Below are positions 57,610-63,248 of a DNA stretch of 64,000 nt, in pieces. How positions within the stretch are numbered: position 1 is the stretch's first letter; each line of letters opens with the position of its first letter. The translations under genes and the position numbers were made by a program. Source of the stretch: Burkholderiales bacterium (GTDB lineage: Bacteria > Pseudomonadota > Gammaproteobacteria > Burkholderiales > Burkholderiaceae_C); the NCBI GenBank assembly GCA_947381415.1, contig CANCVB010000012.1:1-64000 (forward strand). The letters run 5' to 3'. A model generated the notes under the pieces. The model was not told the DNA's origin, searched no databases, and saw nothing but the letters and a program-made list of their open reading frames with translations.

Positions 57610-57794
57610 ATCACCTTTATTGCGTCTTCCTGAGTTGTGATTCTAATTCCCTACTCATTTTTTCTAGACAGCTCATAACGGGCAGCTGATTGATGCTGAG
57701 AAAAAGTCTTGTATCACGGCACCAAATACGCTCAGACCCACTCACTACACCCTAGGCAAACCCTTCGCCAGAGTCTCGCTATAATTTGCAGCTC

Positions 57795-57812
57795 GGCGCT
57801 TTAGCTCAGTCG
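57795..57812 (+). pseudogene. possible tRNA 5'-end fragment
   Basis: TATAAT (57780-57785) followed by GGCGCTTTAGCTCAGTCG, resembling tRNA acceptor + T8A9 + D-arm start; no downstream cloverleaf. Confidence 0.35.
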
Positions 57813-57983
57813 TGCAAACGAAAGTTCTATAATTAATCTACGGTTCTCTAACCAAGCACCTACCATTATCAACTGCCGCAACGCCTCCACTGCGTGAGTT
57901 TTCATCATAGTTTATGCACTCCACTATCAGCAGACATCAGCTGCCAGTGGCGTTGATTTGACCTTCCATTAATAACTGCCCTG

Positions 57984-58011
57984 TTGTAGCTAAGTCTGCG
58001 GTTAGCTACAA
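57984..58011. repeat. 10-bp perfect inverted repeat with 8-nt spacer
   Basis: TTGTAGCTAA-GTCTGCGG-TTAGCTACAA upstream of the integrase. Confidence 0.85.
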
Positions 58012-58175
58012 ATTCACTGCTGTGTGTGGCTTTTTTGCGGCTTTTATCGTGCTGATTTTTTGGGTGCGTGATTGGTGACATTGTGGTGTTCGCTGGCAGT
58101 GATTGACTCTGCACTCATCACCTGCATTTTTTGATTTTGGTTGCTCGCCAGGTTAACTACATGTAAGCTGCGTTC

Positions 58176-59488: not shown

Positions 59489-59520
59489 TGCAATAGTGTC
59501 GGTTGAACCGACACTTTGCA
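59489..59520. repeat. palindrome copy 1 (22-bp direct repeat core at 59491-59512)
   Basis: TGCAATAGTGTCGGTTGAACCGACACTTTGCA; shares CAATAGTGTCGGTTGAACCGAC with 62142-62163. Confidence 0.9.
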
Positions 59521-59537
59521 ACCTTATCCAAATTAAA

Positions 59538-60293
59538 TTAACTTCTCAAGTTTGAAATCTTTGAGACAGCAACTTGTCCCGCTTTTTTTGCCTGATTAGC
59601 TCCCATTACAACATCAGTAAATATGCTTCTTGCTGATCCACGTCCAGCAATCACTACTTGATCCAAAGCCGCATCTGGCGGAGGCGTTAAGTTTGCATTG
59701 GTATAAACGCGACGTAGTATTGGCCGCCACTGAATTGCTGGAGGTAGGTTCATATCAATAAGAACACTACGGTTCTGTATACCTTGATCTATCTGATCTA
59801 AATTGTTGGTTGTCATGATGAAGACCACATTGGGTTTATTCATGATTGCCTTAAAACCTGCTTGAGCTGCATCTGTGAGGTTGTCGACTTCATCCATGAT
59901 CACAAAGTGATATCGACTGGCATTAAGAGAAACGAAATTTGTCCTTGAATTTATAGCTTGAGTCAATTGAGCACCATTCTGACCTTGGGCGCATGGATGA
60001 TGATCAAAATATGTGTCTTCGCTGCTGATCATTTGGCCTGGCTGTTGGGTTAATGCCGCTGGATCTGACTTGGCAAAATCAATCAGACCCGGCAGCAAAT
60101 TTGCCAAGGTCGTTTTTCCAGTTCCATACAAACCGTAAAGAATAATTCCGCACACACCATTTGCTGGAAATGGCAGTGTTAAATCCAAGATGCTTTCCAG
60201 TTTGAACTTGCTATTTGGTTGTAGTGCAAAGTCATCTAAACACCTTGGCTCAGGTACTGTGACTGCGTTTGATGCAATTGATTGAGCAGACAT
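59538..60293 (-). CDS. AAA+ ATPase, clamp-loader-like
   Basis: Walker A GLYGTGKTT, Walker B FVIMDEVDNL, sensor MTTNN, QNRS; AGGAG SD. Confidence 0.85.
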   Translation of the reverse strand: MSAQSIASNAVTVPEPRCLDDFALQPNSKFKLESILDLTLPFPANGVCGIILYGLYGTGKTTLANLLPGLIDFAKSDPAALTQQPGQMISSEDTYFDHHPCAQGQNGAQLTQAINSRTNFVSLNASRYHFVIMDEVDNLTDAAQAGFKAIMNKPNVVFIMTTNNLDQIDQGIQNRSVLIDMNLPPAIQWRPILRRVYTNANLTPPPDAALDQVVIAGRGSARSIFTDVVMGANQAKKAGQVAVSKISNLRS

Positions 60294-60327
60294 CTGATTC
60301 TCCTATTTGAAATGATTGAGATAGAAG

Positions 60328-60361
60328 GAATGACTGCACCTAGCGGGCGGCACAGTCATTC
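60328..60361. repeat. 9-bp inverted repeat between two island genes
   Basis: GAATGACTG (60328-60336) / CAGTCATTC (60353-60361). Confidence 0.75.
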
Positions 60362-60380
60362 ACATTGCCAACAAGCGCTT

Positions 60381-61193
60381 TCAGCCTGTTTTGAGCGCCA
60401 TGCGAGCTTTAGCTCTTTCTTCCTCAATTGCTTGCATTTCATCCTGCAACTTCTGCGCTTTTTCTTTTTCCTGCCCAATACTGGCGCAAGCTGCCAAAGC
60501 GCTGTTAACTGCGCCACTGTTTTGAACAACTCGCCGAATTGCAAAGCTGCCGTCATCTTCTTTCGTGGCAAGCAGAACAACACCTTCTTCCAAACTGCTG
60601 TTTGAAAAATGGGCATTCAAGTTGTCACTCTGAACCTTTGCCAGAACATCGTTTTCCAGTACTACTCGACCCAGACGTACCTTGTCCTTTAGTGTCTTGG
60701 TCTTGGTTGCAGTTGCACTGCGGCGAACTTCTTCAATTCCGCCGTGCTCTCTAAAGAATTTTGGCAACTCCATGACACTGATCTTTTCTGCCATGGCCAC
60801 TCGTAAAGCACTGCTATAGGCGCTGACACGCCGACGATCCACGCCAAAAACGCATTTGACTACTTTGGTAATGAGTGGCGTTGATTCATTGAAGATGTAC
60901 TTTTGCTCGGCAATGTAATTGGCTAATCCTTTCTTCAATGCCTTGGCTGTTGAGTCAGTTCCTGACATTGCGTTATTGACTGCCAAGCAGTGTTGAAGCA
61001 GTCGGTACAAACCGTCATTGGCTGCTGCCAGTTCATTGGTTTCCCAGTCTTTGCGCTGAACTACCAATTTTTCAATAGCATCACCAATTGCTCGTTCTGG
61101 ATTACTTCCTGTCAACAGATTGCCCACATTGATAGCAAAGGGATTAGGGCGGTCATTAGATGCATTCTCTTCATCTACTTTTTCTTTAATCAT
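60381..61193 (-). CDS. hypothetical protein of unknown family (270 aa), C-terminal charged helix
   Basis: Start moved to MIKEKVDEENASND with AGGAG SD; no recognised domain. Confidence 0.7.
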   Translation of the reverse strand: MIKEKVDEENASNDRPNPFAINVGNLLTGSNPERAIGDAIEKLVVQRKDWETNELAAANDGLYRLLQHCLAVNNAMSGTDSTAKALKKGLANYIAEQKYIFNESTPLITKVVKCVFGVDRRRVSAYSSALRVAMAEKISVMELPKFFREHGGIEEVRRSATATKTKTLKDKVRLGRVVLENDVLAKVQSDNLNAHFSNSSLEEGVVLLATKEDDGSFAIRRVVQNSGAVNSALAACASIGQEKEKAQKLQDEMQAIEEERAKARMALKTG

Positions 61194-61330
61194 GGTTTCT
61201 CCTAGGTTGTTTGAAAAAGTGCCCATCCGCTGAGCACAAATTGATTTCAACCATTAAAGTGTTTGTCGTATACATACCTTTTGAACGGACGAGAAAAAGT
61301 AGACAGATATTTAATTGAGGAGAAAGCGCC

Positions 61331-62131
61331 ATGCGTCAAATGGACAAGCAGCGAAAAGTACAGGCTGATCAATGGAAACAAGATGATCAACGCCTTTTTT
61401 TCAATTTCTTGCGCTTTAGTCCTACCTATTGGCAGGTTTGCAGTAGCACTGAAAAACTTCGTCTATATAAAGATATGCACGATGATCAAAGGGCTGCCAT
61501 TCAGTGCCACAGGAGGTATGGCAATGTTTTTGAGACTAACTTTGATGATTGGTCAATCGCAAATCACCGAAAGTTTATGAACGATGCCAAGCCAGCCATT
61601 CAACTATTGCGTGGTACTGAGGCAGAATTGATTAAGCCAGCTGATCACTTTATACATCTACCCCATGGCACACAAGTAAATTCAATCGATCTCAAAGAAT
61701 TGCTAAGTGGCTTTAAGGTTCAAAACGTCATCAAGACAGCTGTTACAGCAGCCAAAGTAAGAGTTGCAAGTCTTTGGAAAATTATCAATTTGGTTTACAC
61801 CCGAGCACTTCATCCCGATATTGAGCAGTGGCGTGTTGGCGCATTGGTTAAATTAGTCAAAGCTTTTGAACATCTTCTCGATCCTTGGGCAGCAAGAAGT
61901 GTTAGAGGCCATGAGGATATGCGTAGGCATATGAATTTAATGGTCAAGCGTTGGTTGGATCGAGCGGCTCTGATTGCAGAAAACGCAGCTCGGGATTTAT
62001 TTCCCAATGATCAAGGAGAGCTGCATCCTCAGTTCAAGTTGAACTTTGGCGATAGTCGATTTACCAGCAGATTATTTGCACAAGGTGAATGCGAAGCAAT
62101 TTATGCTCGCACTCGGGTCTTGTGCACGTAG
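61331..62131 (+). CDS. hypothetical protein of unknown family (266 aa)
   Basis: GAGGAG SD before ATG; W/R-rich alpha-helical sequence; divergent from 60381..61193. Confidence 0.7.
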   Translation: MRQMDKQRKVQADQWKQDDQRLFFNFLRFSPTYWQVCSSTEKLRLYKDMHDDQRAAIQCHRRYGNVFETNFDDWSIANHRKFMNDAKPAIQLLRGTEAELIKPADHFIHLPHGTQVNSIDLKELLSGFKVQNVIKTAVTAAKVRVASLWKIINLVYTRALHPDIEQWRVGALVKLVKAFEHLLDPWAARSVRGHEDMRRHMNLMVKRWLDRAALIAENAARDLFPNDQGELHPQFKLNFGDSRFTSRLFAQGECEAIYARTRVLCT

Positions 62132-62141
62132 AGGGTTGATT

Positions 62142-62163
62142 CAATAGTGTCGGTTGAACCGAC
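62142..62163. repeat. palindrome copy 2 (22-bp direct repeat)
   Basis: CAATAGTGTCGGTTGAACCGAC identical to 59491-59512. Confidence 0.9.
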
Positions 62164-62197: not shown

Positions 62198-62770
62198 TCA
62201 CACCAACTCAACTGCTCGGCGCAGCATGTCATCGCTGGCATCCACATATCCGATAGTGGTCGAAATATTGCGGTGGCCTAGGATTTTCATCAGCACCCTG
62301 ATACTTGCGCCTCGGCTGCTGAGCGAAGTTGCAAACGTCCTCCTGCCACTGTGGCTGCTGGCACCATCAATTCCTGCCGCCCGATACATGTTTAAGAAGT
62401 GCTGAGCCAATGTGTTTGGCGTAAAGCCTCTGCGTGGGTGTTTCTGTGTGTAAAAGAACGCAGCTGTGTCTTCACGCTGCTTGATAGAACTGGCATAGGT
62501 TTGTAGTTCTTTTTGCAGCTTGGGACTGATGTACACGGTGCGTGGATGTCTGCCCTTGGTCTGGTCGGCATTCAAACGCACTTCCTCGCGCACCCGCCCT
62601 TCTGCGTTTATGACATCCGTCCAAGTAAGTTGGGCAACTTCCCCCACGCGAAGTCCCGCCAAATGGGTCATCATCAGCATGGCTCTGTTACGGGCAGGAT
62701 GTGCTCTTGTAGCTATGGAATCAGTTACACGGCGCAATTCAGCAGCTGTGAGTGTTTTTGCTTGTTTCAT
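62198..62770 (-). CDS. minimal tyrosine recombinase (catalytic domain only, 190 aa; FimB/XerD-like)
   Basis: GLRVGEV (R), TKGRHPR (K), HSGRRTFAT (HxxR), LGHRNIS (H), TTIGYVDAS (Y); lacks N-terminal arm domain. Confidence 0.9.
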   Translation of the reverse strand: MKQAKTLTAAELRRVTDSIATRAHPARNRAMLMMTHLAGLRVGEVAQLTWTDVINAEGRVREEVRLNADQTKGRHPRTVYISPKLQKELQTYASSIKQREDTAAFFYTQKHPRRGFTPNTLAQHFLNMYRAAGIDGASSHSGRRTFATSLSSRGASIRVLMKILGHRNISTTIGYVDASDDMLRRAVELV

Positions 62771-62841: not shown

Positions 62842-63111
62842 ACCCGAAACAGGTTCGGGTCAATGAAATCAATGCGTTACGCAAGAACCTCATGAAATGC
62901 ATATTTTGTGAGGTTTTTGCATCAGCGCCTGTGGATAACTCGTGGCTGTTACGCCACGATGTATTTAGCAGCCCTACAAGCAGTTTTTCAACAGCTGAGT
63001 AGCTTGGGGTGCTGGGCTAGGGTGATCTTGCGCTGTAGGGCTGATTTGACGCAGCTGCTGTTTGCCCAAATGGGGTCTGCAATCCTAATTTTTTCAGCTG
63101 CGAAAAATTAG
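62842..63111. repeat. cluster of six inverted repeats upstream of the minimal recombinase
   Basis: ACCCGAA/TTCGGGT 62842-62860; TGCGT-T-ACGCA 62873-62883; GCAAGAACCTCA/TGAGGTTTTTGC 62881-62920; TCGTGGC/GCCACGA 62940-62959; CAGCCCTACA/TGTAGGGCTG 62969-63043; CTAATTTTT/AAAAATTAG 63085-63111. Confidence 0.8.
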
Positions 63112-63248
63112 CACCCAGTACTTGACTTTTCGAGGTGGTGATTTTTAACCTATCCCGACCTTGTTTGCCAGAAATCGTTCGATGCAATTTACCATGTCGT
63201 TGTAATCTGATGCCACAGTAGTTTGATAAAGTTGAATTCAATCAGAAT

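Follow-up and report, generated by a model that had tools for sequence, protein, structure and literature searches.

A conserved island family at tRNA genes with palindromes that probably mark the ends of exchanged gene modules

Genomic islands are mosaic, and the swapping of their parts is rarely visible. Several described systems approach the kind of locus reported here. In Acinetobacter, pdif (XerCD) sites are short sequences with inner inverted repeats that bound adaptive modules in varied contexts; they are 28 bp long, dif-like (11+6+11) and located on plasmids (PMC6449649). In Streptomyces turgidiscabies, the island PAISt is excised in modular fashion via recombination between palindromic direct repeats (PMC4057263). 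Tycheposons, as far as the account of them in Methylophilaceae goes, are found at tRNA genes of streamlined aquatic bacteria, carry cargo and have a tyrosine recombinase (PMC10872708), and the strand-biased circularizing integrative elements are of small size and carry two or more tyrosine recombinases (PMC10214605).

The locus compared with these systems lies on a contig of a Burkholderiales bacterium (GCA_947381415.1, CANCVB010000012.1), in the window, by which we mean the whole 64,000-nucleotide stretch of DNA that was analysed. Our reading, which we hold to be rather probable, is that the locus carries the core module of a tRNA-integrating element and that element-specific, hairpin-forming palindromes mark the module ends, where modules were exchanged.

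The element and its paired repeats

The first-pass annotation had singled out a three-gene unit, an AAA+ ATPase and two proteins of no recognised family, bracketed by identical 22-bp palindromic direct repeats and placed between two recombinases. The features of the locus, with the names used below, are as follows (positions in the window).

57772-57812, + strand: left end of the element, a tRNA-Met(CAT) gene reduced to its promoter and initial 18 bases, cut in the D-arm between GCTCAGTC and GTGCAAACG
57813-58175, + strand: conserved leader from the tRNA fragment to int1, 85-92% identical in L030 and L031
58176-59471, + strand: int1, tyrosine recombinase of 431 aa, integration module (phrog_1 integrase, 3.5e-20)
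59491-59512, + strand: repeat 1, between the convergent ends of int1 (59471) and AAA (59538); same place in related elements
59538-60293, - strand: AAA, AAA+ ATPase of clamp-loader (RFC/DnaX) type, 251 aa (Pfam AAA, 1.2e-7; phrog_168 clamp loader, 7.7e-16)
60381-61193, - strand: p270, core protein of no known family, start ATG at 61193, conserved in 32 loci
61331-62131, + strand: p266, core protein encoded divergently from p270, with neither a known family nor a known fold
62142-62163, + strand: repeat 2, between the convergent ends of p266 (62131) and int2 (62198); same place in related elements
62198-62770, - strand: int2, compact tyrosine recombinase, catalytic domain only, ~190 aa (Pfam Phage_integrase, 2.9e-27)
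63000-63190, no strand: conserved non-coding segment of the element family, with a copy at 86% identity elsewhere in the genome (C10:120-310)

Profile searches bore out this gene content, including the tyrosine recombinase on either side, while two gene starts were adjusted, the 270-aa gene beginning at the ATG at 61193 and the right-hand recombinase likely at 62770. The int2 ORF extends to 62902, and because its relatives begin at a position matching 62770, this is most likely the true start; the start and the R..K..HxxR..H..Y residues are kept in 16 relatives. int1 is 63-65% identical to the int1 of L077, L078 and L023 and shares only local matches (24-41% identity) with that of L021/L022. 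The AAA protein, 73-74% identical in L021 and L022, matched the NCBIfam models DnaX and RFC, and its family profile matched RFC chains (3e-12) as well as T4 gp44 chains. p266 is 51-53% identical in L021 and 30-32% in L022. For p270 there was no match at threshold in Pfam, NCBIfam or PDB; for p266 there was none in the curated families. The structure searches proposed earlier for these two proteins gave no fold match, either for the predicted structure of p270 (pLDDT 71, mostly helical) or, in PDB, for the model of p266 (pLDDT 77).

The 63066-63147 part of the non-coding segment recurs beside a palindrome in L022 and partly in L021, is found in L021, L022, L077, L078, L132, L145, L150, L155, L164, L166, L167 and L170, and holds inverted TTTTTCGC..GCGAAAAA plus AAGTACTT and GGTGGTGATTTTTA. 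The segment 63000-63190, mainly this part of it, is possibly an origin or a recombinase arm-binding site.

The direct repeats were located correctly by the first-pass annotation, as was their placement between the convergent ends of int1/AAA and p266/int2. CAATAGTGTCGGTTGAACCGAC occurs in two exact 22-bp copies in one orientation, at 59491-59512 and 62142-62163, with no further copy in the window at <=3 mismatches and with 0 such repeats in 100 dinucleotide shuffles of the window. Their description as a 22-bp palindrome holds in part: the copies are identical, but the palindrome is confined to the final 15 bases, GTCGGTTGAACCGAC (59498-59512 and 62149-62163), and CAATAGT is a left flank common to both repeats. 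In the 2.5-Mb genome, one extra copy is present at <=1 mismatch, on contig C10, and both exact copies lie in the island described here. The first 53 kb of the window contain no repeated palindrome.

An element family at tRNA genes

AAA, p270 and p266 are the conserved core of a family of integrative elements of freshwater bacteria, ordered int1 / AAA, p270, p266 / int2. They are not cargo, and the earlier view of the three genes as an exchangeable cargo or defence cassette gives way to that of a core within an element that includes both recombinases. A same-genus DNA search found the whole row int1, AAA, p270, p266, int2 in other genomes, the family order being int1, AAA with p270, p266 and int2, usually followed by a DUF6641 gene (Pfam, 4.9e-14) and cargo; the first-pass annotation had asked whether the three genes co-occur, and in this row they do. 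The cargo of relatives includes a CHAT protein, a MmgE/PrpD enzyme, a TonB receptor and a Fic pair. An alignment scan of 85,462 species genomes with p270 gave 32 loci, among whose named carriers are Polynucleobacter, two Limnohabitans isolates, a Methylophilaceae MAG and uncultured betaproteobacteria; p270 is present in 3 of 159 genera in the order sample and in 12 of the 84 genomes of the window's genus. No relatives were found among viral contigs (queries p266, AAA and p270), plasmid records (queries DNA, p270, p266 and AAA) or phage records (query p270), and there was no packaging, relaxase or conjugation gene among the five core proteins, cargo having been sampled only. The tRNA island family with palindrome-marked modules is a real, conserved architecture. 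We found no description of it in the searchable literature; the islands as such may have been mentioned earlier, in work on Polynucleobacter.

A wider int1-p270-p266 island superfamily without AAA and int2 was also seen (L131, L132, L135 and L140), three of its members at tRNA-Val or tRNA-Asn. In the genus, 48 high-scoring matches to the int2 family occur in 25 of 84 genomes, most of them at palindrome-free loci; the genome of the window has one at C8:2510-3076.

Complete members of the family, 10-13 kb long, are bounded by direct repeats, exact in sequence, that derive from tRNA-Arg, -Met or -Phe genes. The repeats measure 95 bp in a tRNA-Arg region around the 11.4-kb element of L079, 60 bp of tRNA-Met around the 10.1-kb element of L101, and 65 bp of tRNA-Phe around the 12.6-kb element of L104; L082 has an exact 47-bp direct repeat of part of a tRNA gene, and L030 a 43-bp direct repeat at 98% identity. 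Insertion into tRNA genes is evident from these repeats in the relatives, and int1 would be the enzyme that carries it out. Polynucleobacter sp. Tro8-14-1 carries two family elements in tandem at a single tRNA-Arg gene (L079, 1-5341), and in one of them a Fic module replaces the core.

The window shows a tRNA fragment at the left end of its element only, 363 bp from the int1 start. The fragment matches intact tRNA-Met genes in L020, L025, L027 and L030, and the junction is identical in L030 and L031. The right end of the element is rearranged or runs past the contig. After the segment 63000-63190 comes a response-regulator gene, chromosomal or cargo, and contig C10 of the same genome holds an intact tRNA-Met, a DUF6641-like gene and a third palindrome; end overlap gave no join of contig C12 to C10. 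The response-regulator cluster to the right of the element (63249 to C12:67504) leads to a stretch (C12:67420-67504) that repeats part of the element segment at 74% identity, and this cluster may be a module between repeats. We also considered the palindrome itself as the integration site, as 12 of its 15 bases resemble the tRNA-Met D-arm by eye, but the idea was rejected since tRNA-Arg and tRNA-Phe genes also serve as insertion sites in the family.

Palindromes and probable module exchange

The same gene order, with palindromes at the same two places, is found in L021, L022, L077-L091 and others. Six palindromes were counted in 15 kb of L021 and eight in 12 kb of L079 (two tandem elements); integrase, core and a variety of cargo are each enclosed by them. 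Their arms vary by element lineage (GTCGGTT, GTCGTTT, GTCGTGT, GTCAATT) at constant position; in distant relatives the palindromes are GTCGTTTNAAACGAC (L098, L101, L129, L184-L186), GTCGTGTNACACGAC (L130) and GTCAATTNAATTGAC (L134). This co-divergence points to recognition by an element-encoded factor or to homogenisation via recombination among sites. No such palindrome is present in L131, L132, L135 and L140, which have p270 and p266 but neither AAA nor int2. Homologous islands lacking the palindromes, a finding that the first-pass annotation had regarded as contrary to its proposal, therefore exist, but only among distant relatives from which AAA and int2 are missing too.

Palindrome cores of 15 bp and 16 bp occur within one element (L079, L082). 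Complementarity beyond the core is raised only in the first few bases and is not significant past ~9 bases. A long attC-like outer stem was considered and dropped: it is striking at single sites (CCCCCT/AGGGGG in L021), but over the set it was not above cross-site pairing. Many copies of the palindrome in the genus are paired a few kb apart in islands, the total count in the genus is close to that of a reversed control pattern, and 12 eighteen-base palindrome matches in IMG/VR are possibly due to chance. In two genomes of the GTCGTTT lineage, a palindrome lies within the 5' coding part of p270 (L098 9959-9973 and L185 1531-1545). A second palindrome set (L028, L054, L055, L061, L062, L065, L068, L069) has more than 100 bp of context in common, GACCCT..GGTGTCGGTTGAACCGACAT..CCGTCCCGTTACTGGACGCTG, and brackets single secreted-protein genes; it may be another cassette array. 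A lactonase-like propeller is among the genes bracketed in L054, L055, L061, L069 and others.

In 28 instances, an alignment between elements stops at a palindrome in each of the two partners, where shifted positions give an expectation of 0.11. Per 1000 site pairs, the palindromes have 10.8 alignment ends and other gene 3' ends 0.48, a difference of ~22-fold. All these counts include related pairs and are not independent events. Individual comparisons illustrate the pattern. A Fic module (Pfam Fic, 2.4e-18) stands in the place of the core between palindromes in L079 and beside the core in L076; the two modules are ~93% identical, and their similarity ends at the palindrome. The integrase alignment of the window with L077 begins 1 base before the palindrome, and while the AAA, p270, p266 and int2 proteins of L077 and L022 are 82-94% identical, the integrase of L022 is of another type. 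In L093, a 5.7-kb block (alcohol dehydrogenase, AraC regulator) lies between int2 and p266, flanked by near-identical copies of a ~52-bp site that is single in relatives. The modularity proposed by the first-pass annotation, with exchange between palindromes, is supported by the Fic pair in the interval (L079), the duplication of site with cargo (L093) and the integrase swap (window/L077 versus L022), the Fic pair also being a case of other genes between the same palindromes, which it had suggested looking for. These alignments support the view that gene modules have been joined and swapped at palindromes.

In the mechanism that we propose, palindromes would mark the ends of an integrase module, a core module, a module of int2 with the DUF6641 gene, and cargo modules. 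The comparisons support past replacement, insertion and swapping of modules with breakpoints at palindromes, and the exchange step would most likely be recombination between two ~50-bp palindrome sites. The palindromes may end transcription as well.

Agents, rival roles and known systems

As for the agent, exchange by the compact recombinase int2, helped by the AAA ATPase, is a distinct possibility, if one short of an even chance. int2 retains its catalytic residues and usually adjoins a palindrome in these elements (exception L095), but the coexistence of 15- and 16-base cores is ill-suited to a recombinase with a fixed spacer, and the association of int2 and palindrome at the genome level is weak, 9 genomes holding both. 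A strict link of the two was rejected: tried on ~40 additional int2 loci, it failed, and palindromes are missing downstream of other int2 family members. Neither an excised circle nor a recombination product was seen. Exchange by homologous or annealing recombination is also quite possible, and we entertain it tentatively.

The most serious rival, though a somewhat unlikely one, is that the palindromes are terminators or insulators between convergent modules and that breakpoints gather there since cuts between transcription units are harmless, with no special site involved. The sites do favour gene 3' ends, 26 of 52 being convergent versus 19% of background gaps and 5 of 52 divergent versus 29%, and a run of six T comes behind the post-AAA hairpin of L101, L103, L104 and L106, which gives it the classic form of an intrinsic terminator. 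The rival stays serious because of these textbook terminators, which belong to one site type in one lineage; to this extent the bidirectional terminators offered as an alternative by the first-pass annotation are real, but the terminator scan did not pick up the palindromes of the window, and a T run is missing from most sites. Some sites lie at the 5' side of cargo or at an element end (L021 18263, L082 16617, L083 8169). Stem sequence is kept within a lineage and at few places per genome, neither of which terminators need, and the breakpoint density is ~22 times that of other gene 3' ends.

That int2 and the clamp-loader AAA+ ATPase recombine short hairpin sites, and so form a second, integron-like cassette system exchanging modules that include the tRNA-target integrase, we regard as doubtful and on balance unlikely. 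It is improbable that the palindrome is instead bound by p270, p266 or AAA as an operator or a centromere-like site, serving control, copy number or segregation and carried along by modules. The joint absence of palindrome, AAA and int2 from L131, L132, L135 and L140 and the copy in the 5' coding part of p270 in L098 and L185 would fit such a site, which leaves unexplained, however, the copies flanking unrelated cargo and the breakpoints that coincide with them. That the unit is a defence or maintenance cassette standing alone between two repeats is very improbable: the cargo of relatives does include the Fic pair and the CHAT protein, but the three genes are a core present whatever the cargo, and PADLOC matches were weak for AAA and nil for p270, p266 and the recombinases. 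Dispersed REP-type extragenic palindromes, in the island by chance, are scarcely credible, for although these are short palindromes at gene 3' ends with a genus total near that of the reversed control pattern, the 2.5 Mb hold two exact copies, both in one island, and the copies of the genus are often paired in islands.

On our preferred reading, that of exchanged modules with palindromes at their ends, an island reveals its joints through a short, recognisable site whose sequence has diverged together with the element, and the integrase module itself has been traded at such joints. Cultured carriers exist among Polynucleobacter and Limnohabitans isolates, so that the re-tooling of an island's cargo and target site becomes testable at the bench. 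The palindrome is usable to delimit cargo in many environmental genomes, and palindrome-bounded modules are a plausible new cassette-like route of island building.

The island family lies outside the integron and pdif kinds because no IntI, attC boxes or dif site were seen. int2 scored 39 bits against integrase_gron (cut-off 265) and int1 had no match, no RYYYAAC and GTTRRRY boxes of attC were found by eye in the 45-bp flanks of the window sites, and inspection gave no dif-like XerC/XerD site at the palindromes. Like integrons, the family has serial modules, each with a hairpin-forming site at its 3' end, beside a tyrosine recombinase. In contrast to integrons, its genes stand in both orientations, its modules hold several genes, it has no IntI and the whole element moves into tRNA genes; moreover, attC is conserved at its R boxes, whereas the palindromes here have their conserved core in the centre. 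The pdif modules differ in that the sites of the present elements have 15-16 bp cores with variable flanks, in chromosomal elements with their own recombinases. The palindrome of PAISt is the integrase's own att site in bacA (PMC4057263), while here the tRNA att site and the palindrome differ in sequence. The strand-biased circularizing integrative elements are set apart by their description as gammaproteobacterial elements with another core gene set (PMC10214605). Tycheposons, in so far as their account extends, are described with neither palindromes nor an AAA/p270/p266/int2 core (PMC10872708), but two of their features, integration at tRNA genes and a tyrosine recombinase, are shared by this island family.
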